Assembly (NCBI RefSeq): GCF_014651915.1
Contig: NZ_BMXU01000002.1
Location: 997,507 to 1,061,506 of the forward strand
Reading direction: 5' to 3'
From: Parvularcula lutaonensis
GTDB taxonomy: Bacteria; Pseudomonadota; Alphaproteobacteria; Caulobacterales; Parvularculaceae
DNA: 64,000 nt
Shown here in pieces: positions 38,419 to 44,344 of the stretch. The translations under genes and the position numbers were made by a program. Numbering within the stretch: position 1 is the first letter of the stretch; each line of letters opens with the position of its first letter. The notes beneath the pieces were generated by a model that worked only from the letters and a program-made list of their open reading frames with translations, ran no database searches and was not told the DNA's origin.

Positions 38419-38979
38419 TCAGTATGCTTCGATGCGGCGTTGCCAACCGGCGTCTTCGAAATGGAGGTTGAGGACCTCGTTCTTGCGCAAGGGCTCGAAG
38501 GAAGCCTGCGCCGGCGCGTTGGTGCCGACTTGCGCGAGGCGCACGAAGAGGAGGCTCACTTCACGCATGTCGCGAAGCCTAGAGGCGTCGGTGGTCTCGA
38601 GCGCGAAGGTGATGTGCAGACGGTCGTCCCCCTCCATCAGGGGCGGCTCGATCGACAGGACCCTCGCATCGGCAAGAACTGCCGGGGCACCCGGGCGCTT
38701 GGCGAGGTCGACGCGGTCGCCCGGCATGATGATATCGCGCGAAGGCTCGGGCACGACGCGGGCGCTCACCTGCACGACGCCGCGCGGCAGGGCTTCGGTC
38801 ACCTCCGTGCTCGCTTGGAGGTGCTTCACCTCGGCTGAGCTCTCCGCAGCCTGCGTCGGTGATGTCTCCAACCGGAACAGGAACGCGCCCACGAGCGCGA
38901 GGCCGGTCAGGACGAATGTATCGATTAAGAGAATGGAAAGACGACGACGCACGAACAGGCTCCCAACACTCTTAGCCAT
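38419..38979 (-). CDS. Membrane-anchored protein with CpaB-like domain (tentative)
   Basis: 186-aa protein with one N-terminal membrane helix (about 13-36, SILLIDTFVLTGLALVGAFLF) and a periplasmic part. The segment IIMPGDRVDLAKRPGAPAVLADARVLSI followed by FALETTDASRLRDM resembles the SAF/RcpC part of Flp-pilus protein CpaB (PGDRVDV...VLENVRVLAI...A-RL). No other pilus genes are next to it, so the resemblance may be structural only. It precedes the M17 aminopeptidase on the same strand. I do not assign a function. Confidence 0.6.
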   Translation of the reverse strand: MAKSVGSLFVRRRLSILLIDTFVLTGLALVGAFLFRLETSPTQAAESSAEVKHLQASTEVTEALPRGVVQVSARVVPEPSRDIIMPGDRVDLAKRPGAPAVLADARVLSIEPPLMEGDDRLHITFALETTDASRLRDMREVSLLFVRLAQVGTNAPAQASFEPLRKNEVLNLHFEDAGWQRRIEAY

Positions 38980-39177: not shown

Positions 39178-40338
39178 TCAAGTGTCGGCGGACGGGATGA
39201 AATGGTAGATCCGTGGCCGTTCGGCCGGACGCAGACGCTCCCGGCACCACTCGTCGATAGCCCATGCCATGTCCTGGTCCGGCTCCAGACCCGGTGCGAC
39301 GACAATGTCGGCGATCAGGCGATCGAGAAATCCGGGCCGACGGCTGAGGCGCACCTCGCATTTCTCGACACCGGGGCTCTCGGCGATGATCTCCGCGATA
39401 TGGGCCGGATAGACGTTCACCGCGCCGATCTGCACGGCGCCGTCACGCCGTGGACCGAGACGGAACGAACGCTTCCCCTCCCATTCGATCTCATCCATCG
39501 GCACGGTCGTCAGGGTGCGCCCGTCCGGACGCTGACGGATCAGGGCATCCCCCTCCCGGTCCCAGTGATCGAACAGGATGAAAGGCTCGGACTGGCTGTC
39601 GCGCCATGCGATGACGCCGGTCTCTGTCGACCCGTAGAGCTCCCGCAGCGCGCCGAGGCCGCGCTGGCGAAGCTTCTGGGCGAGATCCATGGTCAGCGCT
39701 TCACCGAAGCTGAGCGCGAGCACGTTGCCGGGGATTTCCGGCAAGGTATCGGCGAGGTAGCGCCAAAGCGTCGGTGTGGCGACAACGAGATCACCGAAGC
39801 GCAGCATCTCCGACAGCTCGTCCGGGGTCTTGGTCCGCGCGTCGATCACGGGGATGCGCTGGATATTCGGTGCAATGACGACACCGATGAGCCCGAGCAG
39901 CGTGTGCGGCGGAACCATGGAGATCGTCCGCCTGCGTCCGGAAAGCAGCGAAGCCACGGCCGCGCCGTCCTGGAACATGTCGTCGGCGGCGTGGCGGGTC
40001 GCGGCCTCGTTCGTCTGGGTCGAGGGATAGAAGCTGAAACTGATGAGCTCGTCGCGCGCAAGCTTGGAGAGCTCGCGCGCCCAGTCACCGATGGTGGTGC
40101 CGGGCTCTGCGGGCAAGTCGGCATGGTCTCGGCCGAAATACTCGGTGGCGCGGGCGGCGCAGCCTTCGAGCTGTTCCGGGGTCAAGGCGATACCGCCCTT
40201 GCCGAGCTTGGTCTCGGCACCCCAACCCGAATGGACCAGCGTTTCGGTATAGCGCTTGTGCCGTCGCGCCAGCTCATCAGCGATGAGCGATGCGAGGATC
40301 TTGCTGATCTGCTCTTCGGAGAAGGTGAAGCTCTTCAT
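39178..40338 (-). CDS. Atypical ANL-superfamily (AMP-ligase-like) protein in pab operon
   Basis: 386-aa protein with the adenylate-forming (acyl-CoA synthetase) fold. Motif A5 is clear (ELYGSTETG), and a region like A7-A8 follows (FRLGPRRDGAVQIGAVNVYPAHIAEII). However, the A3 P-loop position reads FYPSTQTNEAATRH, lacking the glycines and lysine of SGTTG-PK. The protein also stops at LRPAERPRIYHFIPSADT, before the A10 Gly-Lys that carries the second catalytic lysine. The N-terminal region is short and unusual. It may bind an aromatic acid or its adenylate without normal ligase chemistry. It is coupled to pabC by an ATGA overlap and ends the pab operon. Confidence 0.82.
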   Translation of the reverse strand: MKSFTFSEEQISKILASLIADELARRHKRYTETLVHSGWGAETKLGKGGIALTPEQLEGCAARATEYFGRDHADLPAEPGTTIGDWARELSKLARDELISFSFYPSTQTNEAATRHAADDMFQDGAAVASLLSGRRRTISMVPPHTLLGLIGVVIAPNIQRIPVIDARTKTPDELSEMLRFGDLVVATPTLWRYLADTLPEIPGNVLALSFGEALTMDLAQKLRQRGLGALRELYGSTETGVIAWRDSQSEPFILFDHWDREGDALIRQRPDGRTLTTVPMDEIEWEGKRSFRLGPRRDGAVQIGAVNVYPAHIAEIIAESPGVEKCEVRLSRRPGFLDRLIADIVVAPGLEPDQDMAWAIDEWCRERLRPAERPRIYHFIPSADT

Positions 40339-41141
40339 GACGCCGCTTTCTCGGCAGCCTCGAGGGCCTGCGTCAAGCGCCGGACACCTTCGATGTCGGG
40401 AAGGGCGCCGCCTTGCAGCGCCAGCGGTTCGACGCCGACGAGAGAATTGGTGCGGGCGAGCGGCAGGGATGCGAGGTCCGCCTGCGAGATCGCAGCCTCG
40501 GTGACTTCGCGGGCTTCGAGCAGGACCGCCCGGACGATCCCGGGCAGGATCCCGGCACAGACAGGAGGGGTGACCCAGCCGTTTTTCGTCCGCGCAAGGA
40601 GGTTGGCCATCGACGTGCTCGCCGGCTCGCTGCGCGTGTTGAGCATGACGGCGTCGCTGGCGCCCTTCCCGGCTGCCTCCATCCGCGCGAGAACCTGGTC
40701 CTGGTAGCTGAGGCTTTTCATCCGGCTGAGCGGGGAAAAGTCGTTCCTGCGGTGGGTGCTGACGATCGCGGAAACCGGTTCGCAGCGGCGCGGCCCTGCC
40801 GGAGCGATGGTGATGACGCGGCGCACGGAGGGTCCTGGCGGCGGCAGAAGGCCTCTCGGGCCTGTTCCGCGGCTGAGGGTGATGCGCATGGAGCCAGGCG
40901 CGTCGCCATGGGCCTCGATGGCGGCGGCGATGTCGGCTTCGATGGCGTGGCGGTCCACTGGAAGCTCGAGAATGGCGCCGCTTTGATCCAACCGGTCGAG
41001 GTGCCGGGAAAGCAGGAGCGCGCGGCCACCCTCGACACGGAGCGTGCTGAACAGGCCGTCGCCGAGAAGGAACCCCCGGTCGGTGACGGGTAGCGCAGGC
41101 GCGTCGCCGTCAATCCTTTGGCCGTCGAGAAGCGCAATCAT
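40335..41141 (-). CDS. pabC: Aminodeoxychorismate lyase-like class IV aminotransferase
   Basis: 268-aa PLP enzyme of fold type IV. Next to pabA and pabB it most likely releases pyruvate from 4-amino-4-deoxychorismate to give p-aminobenzoate. The N-terminus has the DRGFLLGDGLFSTLRVEGGRALLLSRHLDRL signature. The expected Schiff-base lysine is in MKSLSYQDQVLAR, with ASDAVMLN and a SMANLL segment after it and a TPP--AGILPGI-R run near residue 195. The ATG at 41141 overlaps the pabA stop (ATGA); a TTG six bases earlier is an alternative. Class IV specificity (ADC lyase versus D-amino-acid or branched-chain transaminase) rests on context. Confidence 0.9.
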   Translation of the reverse strand: MIALLDGQRIDGDAPALPVTDRGFLLGDGLFSTLRVEGGRALLLSRHLDRLDQSGAILELPVDRHAIEADIAAAIEAHGDAPGSMRITLSRGTGPRGLLPPPGPSVRRVITIAPAGPRRCEPVSAIVSTHRRNDFSPLSRMKSLSYQDQVLARMEAAGKGASDAVMLNTRSEPASTSMANLLARTKNGWVTPPVCAGILPGIVRAVLLEAREVTEAAISQADLASLPLARTNSLVGVEPLALQGGALPDIEGVRRLTQALEAAEKAAS

Positions 41142-41698
41142 CGGCAAAGCTCCAGGAAGTTTCCGAGCAGCCTCCGGCCCTCGGGTGTGAGGATCGACTC
41201 CGGGTGGAATTGCACGCCGACATGCGGTCGCGCATTATGGCGGAAGGCCATGAGTTCGTCATCCTCGGACCTTGCAGTCTCGCGAAGATCTGTATCCGCA
41301 ATATCGCTGACCAAGGCGTGGTAGCGACCCGCCTGAAACGGATTGGCGAGACCCGCGAAAAGCGGGTCGCCGGTATGGCTGATGGCCGAGGGTCGTCCGT
41401 GCATCGGCGTTCTGGCGCGCACAGTGCGGCCGCCATAAGCCTCGGCAATGGCAAGATGGCCGAGACAGACACCGAGGATCGGCGTATCGGGAAAGGCTGG
41501 CGGCAGGGCTCGGCAGATGCCGGCTTCCGCAGGGGTGTAGGGTCCGGGGCTGAGGATCATGCCTCCAGGAGCGATCTCCGCCACGTCTTCCACCGTGAGC
41601 TGATCGTTACGGACGACATCGGTCGCGAACCCGGCTTCGCGGACATAGCGCGCGAGGGTTTCAACGAAGCTGTCGTAATTATCGATGATGAGAATCAT
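41138..41698 (-). CDS. pabA: Aminodeoxychorismate synthase glutamine amidotransferase subunit
   Basis: 186-aa class-I glutamine amidotransferase supplying ammonia to PabB (and possibly to TrpE). It starts MILIIDNYDSFVETLARYV. The oxyanion strand is MILSPGPYTPAEAG, the nucleophile Cys is in ILGVCLGHLAIAEAYGG, and the catalytic His/Glu are in GVQFHPESILTP near the C-terminus. Length fits PabA/TrpG. The ATG overlaps the pabB stop and its own stop overlaps the pabC start, so all are translationally coupled. A longer in-frame extension to 41815 lies inside pabB and is not credible. Confidence 0.95.
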   Translation of the reverse strand: MILIIDNYDSFVETLARYVREAGFATDVVRNDQLTVEDVAEIAPGGMILSPGPYTPAEAGICRALPPAFPDTPILGVCLGHLAIAEAYGGRTVRARTPMHGRPSAISHTGDPLFAGLANPFQAGRYHALVSDIADTDLRETARSEDDELMAFRHNARPHVGVQFHPESILTPEGRRLLGNFLELCR

Positions 41699-42852
41699 GA
41701 CCGACCCGCCAGCATGCGGAAGAGATAGCCCTTGTCGAGAGCTTCGATATATTCCTTGTGCGGATCGGAAAGAATCGTGACGCCACCGCCGGAGCGGACA
41801 TCGAGCCTTCGGCATTCCTCATCGATCACCGCGGTGCGGATCGCGACGCTGGCGGCAGCGCGCTTGCCGTCCGTGTAGAAGACCGAGCCGCAATAGGCGC
41901 CCCTGCCCTCGCCTTCGAGTGCGGCGATGGCGTCCATCGCGGCGAGCTTCGGCGCGCCCGTGACCGAGCCGCAAGGAAAGGCTGCGCGGAGGGCGTCGGC
42001 GAAGAGGAGACCTTCGCGCAAGTGTCCCTCAATGCGCGAATAGAGGTGGTGGACGTGATCGAGGCTGCGCGCTCCGCAAATCTCGGGTTCCGCGATCGAA
42101 CCGTCGGCACAGACCTTGGCGAGATCATTGCGCATGAGATCCGCGATCATGATGTTCTCGGCACGGTCTTTCGGATCAGCCAGCAGGTCTTCGAGCAGCC
42201 TTGCGTCCTCGATGGGGTCCTCCGACCTCGGACGGGTGCCCTTGATCGGCTCGGTTGCAAGGCGGCGGCCTTCAAGTGCAAGGAACAGTTCGGGCGATGC
42301 ACTGACGATAGCGTGCTCGCCGAGATCGAGCAGCGCGCCGAAACGGGCGGTCAGGGCTTCGCGCCAGGGCAATTGGTCGATGACACGGCCCTCCCCGCCG
42401 AACTCCGCAGACTGACGATGGGAAACATTGACCTGGAAGACATCGCCCGCCGCGATCCGACGACGAACGTCCTTTGCCTTTTCCGCGTAAGCCTCGGGCG
42501 TGTCGCCCTCATCAAGCCGCAAGGGTGCGGGCATGTGTTCGGGGAGCGGAAGGTCGTCTTGCACCCTCTGCGCCCTGCCGAAGACGCCAAACCAGGCCGC
42601 AGGCGCGCCGAGCGGCGGTGGCGGCAGGTCGAGACCGGGTTCCGGTTCCACCGCGCATTCATAGCCGAAATAACCTGCGAGAACGTCGCCTTCCCGAAGC
42701 GAGGCTTCAGCTTCGCGCAGGGCCTCGAACGGACGGGCTCCGGGCAGCTCATCATGGTCGCAGCTCCAGACGTCACGAACGTCCGAGAGCTCGATCGCTT
42801 CACCGGAAAAACCCGCGGCGAGGATCACCCGCCGCGGCTGTGGCCCGTTCAC
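41695..42852 (-). CDS. pabB: Aminodeoxychorismate synthase component I
   Basis: 385-aa chorismate-utilising enzyme. The lysine in TEPIKGTRPR is the PabB-specific nucleophile; anthranilate synthases have Ala (PIAGTRPR), so this should make 4-amino-4-deoxychorismate. Other signatures are GDVFQVNVSHRQ, SASPELFLALEG, MIADLMRNDLAKVC, FPCGSVTGAPKLAAMD and RSGGGVTILSDP. The GTG at 42852 is a tentative start, 19 bp after the ctpA stop; an upstream ATG (42894) would overlap ctpA. The N-terminal domain is short, but the catalytic core is whole. It heads the four coupled genes pabB-pabA-pabC-ANL. Confidence 0.94.
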   Translation of the reverse strand: MNGPQPRRVILAAGFSGEAIELSDVRDVWSCDHDELPGARPFEALREAEASLREGDVLAGYFGYECAVEPEPGLDLPPPPLGAPAAWFGVFGRAQRVQDDLPLPEHMPAPLRLDEGDTPEAYAEKAKDVRRRIAAGDVFQVNVSHRQSAEFGGEGRVIDQLPWREALTARFGALLDLGEHAIVSASPELFLALEGRRLATEPIKGTRPRSEDPIEDARLLEDLLADPKDRAENIMIADLMRNDLAKVCADGSIAEPEICGARSLDHVHHLYSRIEGHLREGLLFADALRAAFPCGSVTGAPKLAAMDAIAALEGEGRGAYCGSVFYTDGKRAAASVAIRTAVIDEECRRLDVRSGGGVTILSDPHKEYIEALDKGYLFRMLAGRS

Positions 42853-42871: not shown

Positions 42872-44344
42872 CTAGCGCTGGATCGCACCTGCATCGGCGA
42901 GGAGCTGGCCGAATTGCGCCTGGTCGGCAAGCAGTTCGAGCGCCCGCTCAAGCTGGCAATCCTTGCCTTCCTCGCACTCGACAGGCTCGATGAAGAGCGC
43001 CGTGGCGTTCTCTTCCTCGCGCTCCTTCTCGCGGAGAGCCTCCTGGCCTTCCATCAGGATTTCCTGCACCGAGGCCGACGAGGAGTTCTCGCCCGGCTCG
43101 CCAAGGCCAACGGGTTCGTCCTTGTCCACGTCGAGTGCACCGTCGAGGTCCGCTTCCGAGCGGCGCTTGACTGGCTCGTCCTGACCCGGACGAGTGATCG
43201 GCATGACGATGTCAGGGACAATGCCCTGCGCCTGGATCGAACGGCCGGACGGAGTGTAGTAGCGGGCCGTGGTCAGGCGGAGCGCGCCCGAATCGCCGCG
43301 ATTGAGCGGAAGGATCGTCTGCACCGAGCCCTTGCCAAAGGTCTTGGTCCCAAGGATCAGCGCGCGGTTGCGGTCCTGCAGGGCACCCGCGACGATTTCC
43401 GAGGCCGAGGCCGAGCCGCCATTGACGAGAACAACGATGGGCTTGCCCTCGAGGACGTCGCCCTTCTTGCCGAGCTCGCGCATCGATTCCTTCCCGCTGC
43501 GACCGCGGGTCGAAACGATCTCACCGCCATCGAGGAAGGCATCCGACACGGCCACGGCCTGGTCGAGAAGTCCGCCCGGATTGGAGCGGAGGTCGAGAAC
43601 GATGCCTTCGAGTCCGCCGGTTTCCTTTTCGAGCTCGCGGATCGCGTCGAGCATCTTGCCGTTCGTCTGGGCGGTGAAGCTCGCAAGGCGGATATAGCCG
43701 AAGCGGTCCTGCTCCACCCGCGAAGCGACGGGGTTCACGGTGATGATGTCGCGCGTCAACGAGAATTCGAGGGGTTCGTCGACGCCCTCGCGGGCAACGC
43801 GCAGCGTGACCTCGGTGCCCTTGTCGCCCTTCATCAGGTCGGTCGCTTCGGTCAGCGACATGCCGAACACGGACTTGCCGTCGATTTCGAAGATCAGGTC
43901 GCCGGGCTCGATACCCGCACGCGCGGCCGGGGTATCGTCAATCGGCGAGATGACGCGAACGAGGCCGCGGCCTATGCCTTCACGCTCCTGGGTCACCTGG
44001 ATACCGAGGCCACCGAAGGTGCCACGCGTCTGCTCCTGCATTGTCTCGAGATCACGTGGCGGCAGGTAGCTCGAATGGGGATCGAGGGAATTGAGCATGC
44101 CCTCGATCGCGCCTTCCATCAGTTCGCGGTCGTCAGGCTCTTCAACATAGTTGCGGTGCACTGTCTCGAATGCCTCACCGAAGAGGTCGAGCTGGCGGAA
44201 GGTCTCGGCGTCGAAGGCGGAACGCGCGAAGCCTGCCGTAAGGAGGCCGGCCGTGATCGCGCCGCCGAGGACGGCACCGATCGCCATGGAGGAAACGCTC
44301 CGGCGTCCGTCGCCGAGCTCAATCTTCGATCGCTTCATCATCAC
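42872..44344 (-). CDS. ctpA: S41 family C-terminal processing peptidase
   Basis: 490-aa periplasmic serine protease with an N-terminal signal/anchor (SSMAIGAVLGGAITAGLLTAGFARS). A PDZ domain spans about 105-190 (FGGLGIQVTQ, IEPGDLIFEIDGKSV). The S41 domain has the catalytic Ser in NGGSASASEIVAGAL and the Lys in LGTKTFGKGSVQT. Tail-specific proteases of this type degrade cell-wall hydrolases or mature periplasmic proteins. The C-terminus carries an acidic, Glu-rich tail of about 90 residues with a possible disulphide pair (VECEEGKDCQ). It lies downstream of envC, as usual in alphaproteobacteria, with a 190-bp gap. Confidence 0.94.
   Translation of the reverse strand: MMMKRSKIELGDGRRSVSSMAIGAVLGGAITAGLLTAGFARSAFDAETFRQLDLFGEAFETVHRNYVEEPDDRELMEGAIEGMLNSLDPHSSYLPPRDLETMQEQTRGTFGGLGIQVTQEREGIGRGLVRVISPIDDTPAARAGIEPGDLIFEIDGKSVFGMSLTEATDLMKGDKGTEVTLRVAREGVDEPLEFSLTRDIITVNPVASRVEQDRFGYIRLASFTAQTNGKMLDAIRELEKETGGLEGIVLDLRSNPGGLLDQAVAVSDAFLDGGEIVSTRGRSGKESMRELGKKGDVLEGKPIVVLVNGGSASASEIVAGALQDRNRALILGTKTFGKGSVQTILPLNRGDSGALRLTTARYYTPSGRSIQAQGIVPDIVMPITRPGQDEPVKRRSEADLDGALDVDKDEPVGLGEPGENSSSASVQEILMEGQEALREKEREEENATALFIEPVECEEGKDCQLERALELLADQAQFGQLLADAGAIQR

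Follow-up and report, generated by a model that had tools for sequence, protein, structure and literature searches.

Canonical folate operons carry three genes for p-aminobenzoate (PABA), pabA, pabB and pabC. PABA supply and use form a classic drug target, with sulfonamides acting at the next step. Parvularcula lutaonensis has the same three genes within a 64,000 bp stretch of contig NZ_BMXU01000002.1 (the whole of which is referred to here as the window), and differs in having a fourth, apparently coupled gene behind them, whose product has the adenylate-forming (ANL) fold and is probably non-catalytic. The family nearest to this ANL protein is TIGR02372, the 4-coumarate coenzyme A (CoA) ligase of photoactive yellow protein (PYP), and its closest structures include aryl-CoA ligases. 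For aryl-CoA ligases, the available text of PMC8388817 names the A10 lysine as the key catalytic residue, gives (G/A)(G/A)(A/E)(P/A)L as a motif, and describes A3 mutants whose activity is between 4-fold reduced and fully lost. The ANL protein of P. lutaonensis lacks both A3 and A10, is strongly constrained in sequence, and persists in relatives that have no neighbouring pab genes.

The operon is composed of the following features, with proteins sized in amino acids (aa):

41695..42852 (-): pabB, aminodeoxychorismate synthase component I, 385 aa, GTG start; PF00425 248.4 bits
41138..41698 (-): pabA, glutamine amidotransferase, 186 aa; PF00117 161.4 bits, TIGR00566 172.3 bits
40335..41141 (-): pabC, aminodeoxychorismate lyase, divergent, 268 aa; PF01063 144.7 bits
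39178..40338 (-): probable carrier-ANL pseudoenzyme, 386 aa, A5, A7 and A8 kept, A3 and A10 lost; TIGR02372 173.5 bits, AlphaFold2, Foldseek, motifs
40045..40338 (-): predicted N-terminal carrier-protein-like domain of the ANL protein, residues 1-98, without the phosphopantetheine serine; AlphaFold2, Foldseek
41695..41698 (-): ATGA overlap of pabB and pabA, from the sequence
41138..41141 (-): ATGA overlap of pabA and pabC, from the sequence
40335..40338 (-): ATGA overlap of pabC and the ANL gene, from the sequence, a small gap being kept across the family

An earlier note on this DNA had proposed a translationally coupled pabB-pabA-pabC series followed by a protein of adenylate-forming fold that is not part of known folate synthesis, and suggested that this protein acts on PABA or on a nascent intermediate. 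The pab identities are borne out by the Pfam scores above, and the sequence confirms the ATGA overlaps (41698-41695, 41141-41138 and 40338-40335 in the direction of transcription), from which we infer translational coupling of the four genes. The statement that the fourth gene is not part of known folate synthesis also stands.

Fold, motifs and constraint of the ANL protein

The AlphaFold2 model of the ANL protein (predicted local distance difference test, pLDDT, 90.7; predicted template modelling score, pTM, 0.87) has the two-domain adenylate-forming fold that had been proposed for it. The best match in the PDB found by Foldseek is benzoate-CoA ligase 4rm3 (E 9e-17), with other ANL enzymes including aryl ligases following, and a profile built from 35 family rows and seven PYP-type rows finds anthranilate-CoA ligase as the best PDB sequence, mainly across the C-terminal 105 residues. 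Residues 1-98 modelled alone reach a pLDDT of 88.2, and their best 50 Foldseek matches are mostly acyl carrier proteins (template modelling score to target ≤0.78, E ≥0.12, top probability 1.00); Pfam gave no carrier-domain match for the window ANL protein.

The A3, A5, A7, A8 and A10 set expected of active ANL enzymes is incomplete in the family proteins, 35 of which were compared in an alignment with six PYP-type ligases plus another copy encoded by G001, a genome of the window's genus. The A3 P-loop is absent from 35 of 35, with no fixed sequence in its place, and from all 26 further sequences. The A10 lysine segment is missing from all 61; no more than 29 residues follow the last ERPRIY-like stretch, and a GK pair occurs in the tails of L068 and L156 only, but outside the A10 context. 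The DSL serine site is absent from every one of the 35 family proteins and present in all seven PYP-type rows. The A5 YG[ST]T core, the A7 aspartate and the A8 R.D are kept in 35 of 35, and among the 26 further sequences the exceptions are L150, with F in place of Y in A5, and L166, in which the end of A8 varies. The family also has invariant residues with no counterpart in the PYP ligases, including G134, R135, G212, E213, R224, R232 and C327, with R136 present in 34 of 35; the GE pair at 212-213 partly fits the aryl-CoA ligase motif. Since both the P-loop A3 and the A10 lysine are missing, adenylation has very probably been lost, and a plain, adenylating PABA ligase is for the same reason an unlikely form of the action on PABA that the earlier note had suggested.

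Constraint was measured in 25 of the 28 first-batch genomes that have all four genes (300 pairs), L037 and L038 being dropped as no pabC start was found upstream of the match, and L073 because of a truncated ANL gene. The ANL protein has a mean identity of 50%, compared with 37% for PabC, 44% for PabB and 55% for PabA; its conservation exceeds that of PabC in all 300 pairs and that of PabB in 262, and 56 of its 386 columns are invariant over the 25 genomes. Two pairs were usable for nonsynonymous divergence (dN), the others tried being saturated for most genes or outside the set. In the pair L048/L049 (synonymous divergence, dS, 0.58 to 1.0) dN is 0.044 for the ANL gene versus 0.090 to 0.124 for the pab genes, and in L045/L047, with dS near saturation, it is 0.054 versus 0.151 to 0.247 for the three pab genes. 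Having lost its catalytic motifs yet remaining under purifying selection, the ANL protein is in all likelihood a pseudoenzyme.

The relationship to the PYP ligases is close but does not amount to membership. The ANL protein scores 173.5 bits against TIGR02372, whose cut-off is 334.7 (a strict one when taken alone, as six PYP-type sequences themselves score 266 to 323), and 27.1 bits against Pfam AMP-binding, below the cut-off of 29.9. No PYP was found in the window genome (best match 18.5 bits against a cut-off of 143.05), nor was any ammonia lyase. Because the score lies below the cut-off, A3 and A10 are missing and no PYP was found, the protein is not a TIGR02372 member, though TIGR02372 is its nearest family; the absence of PYP and ammonia lyase matches together with the motif losses likewise rules out a working PYP ligase.

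A scan of 385 genomes drawn from the class with TIGR02372 (E 1e-25 or better) gave matches in 31, namely G000, six of PYP type (266 to 323 bits) and 24 partial ones (92 to 128 bits). The six PYP-type sequences (L108-L113) all have A10 and all have A3, degenerate in L109, and at least two of their genes (L110 and L113) adjoin a PYP gene, as recognised by eye from translations. Two of the partial-match sequences, L122 and L123, were aligned, and A3 and A10 are present in each. The tree, which is unrooted and has long reference branches, separates the ANL family as a single clade from the seven PYP-type rows (support 100/99); alignments and trees excluded L072, L073 and L006 (on the same contig as L038).

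The seventh PYP-type row is a second ligase copy in G001 (L071:7974-9155; 240.6 bits to TIGR02372) in which A3 and DSL are intact and A10 is absent; an antisense open reading frame (ORF) at 6473-6925 of L071 resembles, by eye, the complement of a PYP gene. The N-terminal DSL motif of the PYP-type ligases (L108-L113 and L071; seven of seven) lies where the degenerate counterpart in the ANL protein models like a carrier protein, and Pfam PP-binding gives a best E of only 0.19 (L113) on five PYP-type N-termini. In the PYP-type ligases a small carrier-protein-like domain appears to precede a short ANL body, and these p-coumarate ligases may load their own carrier domain.

Gene order and loss of the neighbouring pab genes

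Homologues were sought in a draw of 398 genomes of the order, 62 from the Parvularcula family (f1, taken from the taxonomy as Parvularculaceae) and 336 others, with 317 unmatched genomes placed outside f1 by inference from the kin-first listing order. The ANL gene is present in 61 of the 62 f1 genomes and in 0 of the 336 others; the Parvularcula maris homologue is 75% identical. The sole f1 genome without it, G025, is 89% complete in ~460 contigs and has one chorismate-binding match, and among the 62 none was found with the operon kept and the ANL gene lost. Gene order was examined in all 61 carriers, of which 58 were assessable and three lay at a contig edge. The pabC gene is directly upstream of the ANL gene in 53 of the 58, and five have no pab gene there. 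In all 53 (first batch 31, second batch 22) the ANL start lies -4 to +13 bases from the pabC stop, start codons having been assigned by script close to the aligned one, so this adjacency is not chance. All four genes occur together in 28 of the 36 first-batch genomes, counting the window and with the last gene cut by the contig end in G016. The next recurring gene after the ANL gene is on the opposite strand in 31 of 36 surveyed loci, and no further operon gene follows.

The earlier note had proposed asking how often homologues follow pabC, and had allowed that the association might be a one-strain oddity; it is not, although it is confined to one family. Inherited synteny probably accounts for part of it, and the near-zero gaps argue for a linked role of the ANL protein and the pab genes, since they persist at identities down to 38%.

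The five genomes without neighbouring pab genes (G005, G010, G019, G028 and G581), several of them draft assemblies, all have an intact ANL gene. Their distribution requires at least five changes on a tree of 58 rows, from which L164-L166 were left out, and their ANL end branches are 0.19, 0.42, 0.54, 0.56 and 0.69, compared with a median of 0.25 and a longest branch of 1.64 for the 58 rows. PabB is encoded elsewhere in G005 and G028. In G010 (100% complete) and G019 (96%), where alternative PABA routes were not searched, the search for chorismate-binding enzymes gave TrpE alone; both keep dihydropteroate synthase (DHPS) and have two and three Aminotran_4 matches respectively. These two genomes should therefore need PABA from outside or a non-canonical route, one example of which, a self-sacrificing oxygenase, is described in the available text of PMC11965152. 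G581 (L152) retains a pabA fragment (78% over 23 residues, E 9.5e-10) and a weak pabC fragment (E 1e-4) just before its intact ANL gene, and G021 has kept pabC with the ANL gene while its PabB is elsewhere.

Two further observations concern these genomes. The presence of DHPS without a detected PabB was seen in G010 at L061 and L128 and in G019 at L069 and L129. At another site in G005 (L124:5557-6318) a different PabB adjoins an Aminotran_4 (PabC-like) gene, and it looks as if the original operon had been displaced.

Because the ANL gene is intact where its pab neighbours are gone, and PabB was not found in G010 and G019, the protein is probably no subunit of the PABA-making enzymes and probably needs no nascent intermediate. 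Of the two actions suggested by the earlier note, that on nascent aminodeoxychorismate is thus argued against by five genomes without neighbouring pab genes, two of them with TrpE only, and binding or sequestering of PABA is the part we prefer. The ANL protein would then act either on PABA, irrespective of where this comes from, or on some other target.

The PABA set and flanks of the window genome

PabA scores above its NCBIfam cut-off (TIGR00566, 172.3 bits against 121.05), and PabB and PabC are both under the strict equivalog cut-offs of their best matches (TIGR01824, 275.8 bits against 408.55; NF004761, 98.4 bits against 260); the three occur together. The pabBAC operon is the window genome's only PABA set, since the only other chorismate-binding enzyme found there is TrpE and the only other Aminotran_4 (class-IV aminotransferase) is IlvE, which also rules out a second set serving a secondary product beside a canonical one. 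No UbiC chorismate lyase was found in the window genome (10.8 bits), and a Caulobacter control was likewise negative.

Upstream of pabB is one further feature:

42872..44344 (-): ctpA-like peptidase, named by eye, possibly co-transcribed in the window's subclade

As ctpA ends 19 bases before pabB in the window genome, the transcript may be longer than four genes and start further upstream. In the first-batch neighbourhood survey ctpA is beside pabB in L037, L038 (L006 being the same contig) and L039 only, and a scan for promoters and terminators gave signals at chance level. Downstream of the ANL gene, a SAF/CpaB-like ORF (window 38419-38979, by eye) may be a remnant of a tad pilus cluster, also recognised by eye; a tad pilus-like cluster occupies this site in most of the 36 surveyed loci. 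The different flanks of the window at first suggested relocation. The window's downstream aminopeptidase and kinase genes are also found beyond the pilus-like cluster in G005 (L115), which fits deletion of the cluster in the window's subclade rather than relocation, and a mobile four-gene unit is ruled out.

Candidate functions and known counterparts

Our tentative preference, held at somewhat less than even confidence, is that the ANL protein is a pseudoenzyme that binds PABA or a similar aryl acid, or hands it on. It would descend from, or share an origin with, the p-coumarate ligases that arm PYP. With the carrier serine, A3 and the A10 segment gone, adenylation driven by adenosine triphosphate (ATP) and self-loading should fail; A5, A7 and A8 retain their nucleotide-side residues, and the family has acquired new invariant ones. 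The protein might then bind an aryl acid, most likely PABA, together with adenosine monophosphate (AMP) or another adenosine ligand, and the old ligase pocket and hinge could hold PABA, pass it toward DHPS or report its level. It would be made in step with PabC because PABA arises there, and would still be needed where PABA comes from elsewhere. The available portion of PMC10590383 describes ANL enzymes that shift conformation on acid binding and have been made into sensors, among them a 4-coumaric acid sensor built on the 4-coumarate ligase Nt4CL2, and an ANL fold could on that account serve in binding or sensing. A more specific version, in which a twice-dead carrier-ligase is a dedicated PABA chaperone or sensor throughout the family, trapping membrane-leaky PABA and passing it to folate synthesis, is somewhat unlikely.

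Several observations weigh against a PABA-binding role. That five genomes keep the ANL gene with no pab genes beside it is also compatible with a function that has nothing to do with PABA, and four of the five corresponding rows have branches above the median (0.42 to 0.69), so that mild relaxation after pab loss is possible; the G005 branch is longer than its sister's (0.56 versus 0.31). Against PabA, the ANL protein has the higher conservation in only 59 of 300 pairs. The association with pabC is confined to one family and could partly be inherited synteny. The substrate of the ancestor was probably p-coumarate, it is gene order alone that points to PABA as ligand, and the profile match to the anthranilate ligase leaves the substrate pocket uncovered. 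Catalytic residues might also have migrated elsewhere in the protein.

The alternative that survives best, which we regard as rather unlikely, is that the ANL protein has a family-wide function unrelated to PABA, acting on another aryl acid, in ubiquinone supply or with a protein partner, and stands at the operon end by inherited synteny. Its retention where neighbouring pab genes are absent, including two genomes with no detected PabB, and its limitation to one family would both fit, and because no UbiC was found in the window genome there is room for a 4-hydroxybenzoate role. Against this are the near-zero pabC gaps in 53 of 53 loci though the proteins differ by up to 62%, and the absence in the window's subclade of the pilus-like genes beyond the ANL gene, so that this cluster alone does not explain the gene's position.

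It is less likely still that the protein remains catalytic, acting on PABA or 4-hydroxybenzoate as an aryl-CoA or aryl-AMP ligase whose P-loop and lysine have been replaced elsewhere, for example by GRRR at 134-137. The fold and A5, A7 and A8 are intact, constraint is very strong, G134 and R135 are invariant and R136 nearly so, unlike in the reference ligases, and the 212-213 GE pair offers a partial fit to the aryl-CoA ligase motif as given in the text of PMC8388817 available to us; however, A3 has been lost without a fixed replacement, A10 is absent in 61 of 61, and none of the 36 loci has a further operon gene after the ANL gene, an opposite-strand gene coming next in 31. Much less probable is that only the thiolation half persists, with another enzyme supplying an aryl-adenylate or thioester for the protein to transfer or hydrolyse. 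The losses concern adenylation parts only, A8 and A5 being kept, and the model fits 3cw9 (root-mean-square deviation 4.4) and BadA 4rm3 (5.8) better than 1t5d (13.2), BadA resting in the thiolation state according to the same excerpt of PMC8388817; but the conformation of a predicted model counts for little as evidence, a partner enzyme is neither known nor was one found, and the carrier serine is lost. A decaying, functionless p-coumarate ligase remnant, suggested by the loss of three catalytic or carrier sites, is ruled out by sequence constraint, with the gene kept in 61 of 62 genomes, dN below that of the pab genes in both usable pairs, 56 of 386 columns invariant, and an intact ANL gene beside decayed pab fragments in G581.

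A binding or hand-off role for PABA is the reading preferred here. A conserved ANL protein without its adenylation parts, coupled to PabC and outliving PABA synthesis, points to an unrecognised handling or sensing step; if true, a PABA chaperone or sensor would be an undescribed layer of folate metabolism, important enough to outlast PABA synthesis itself. The protein would also be a clear-cut example of an ATP-dependent ligase converted to another role; enzymatic relatives still exist for comparison, and in about five lineages the operon has been lost around the ANL gene. The earlier note knew of no described system with this set of genes, and among the matches listed from the open-licence PMC literature, as far as their text is available, we likewise found neither such a system nor an ANL-fold pseudoenzyme tied to folate synthesis.

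With the benzoate-, anthranilate- and 4-chlorobenzoate-CoA ligases (4rm3, 4wv3 and 1t5d) the ANL protein shares the ANL fold, these being among its best PDB structure or profile matches, and in part the aryl-CoA ligase motif through its GE pair; it differs in being only 14 to 17% identical, ~115 to 145 residues shorter and without the adenylation motifs. The p-coumarate ligase of PYP is closer, sharing length, domain order, A5, A7, A8 and the best family match, whereas the ANL protein scores about half the family cut-off, lacks A3, A10 and the DSL serine, and is encoded in a pab operon of a genome in which neither PYP nor ammonia lyase was found. Pseudoenzymes in general, as presented in the available text of PMC10211241, are likewise conserved proteins with lost catalytic motifs. 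Pseudoenzymes as such are already known, and the new aspect here would be the tie of one with the ANL fold to PABA synthesis.

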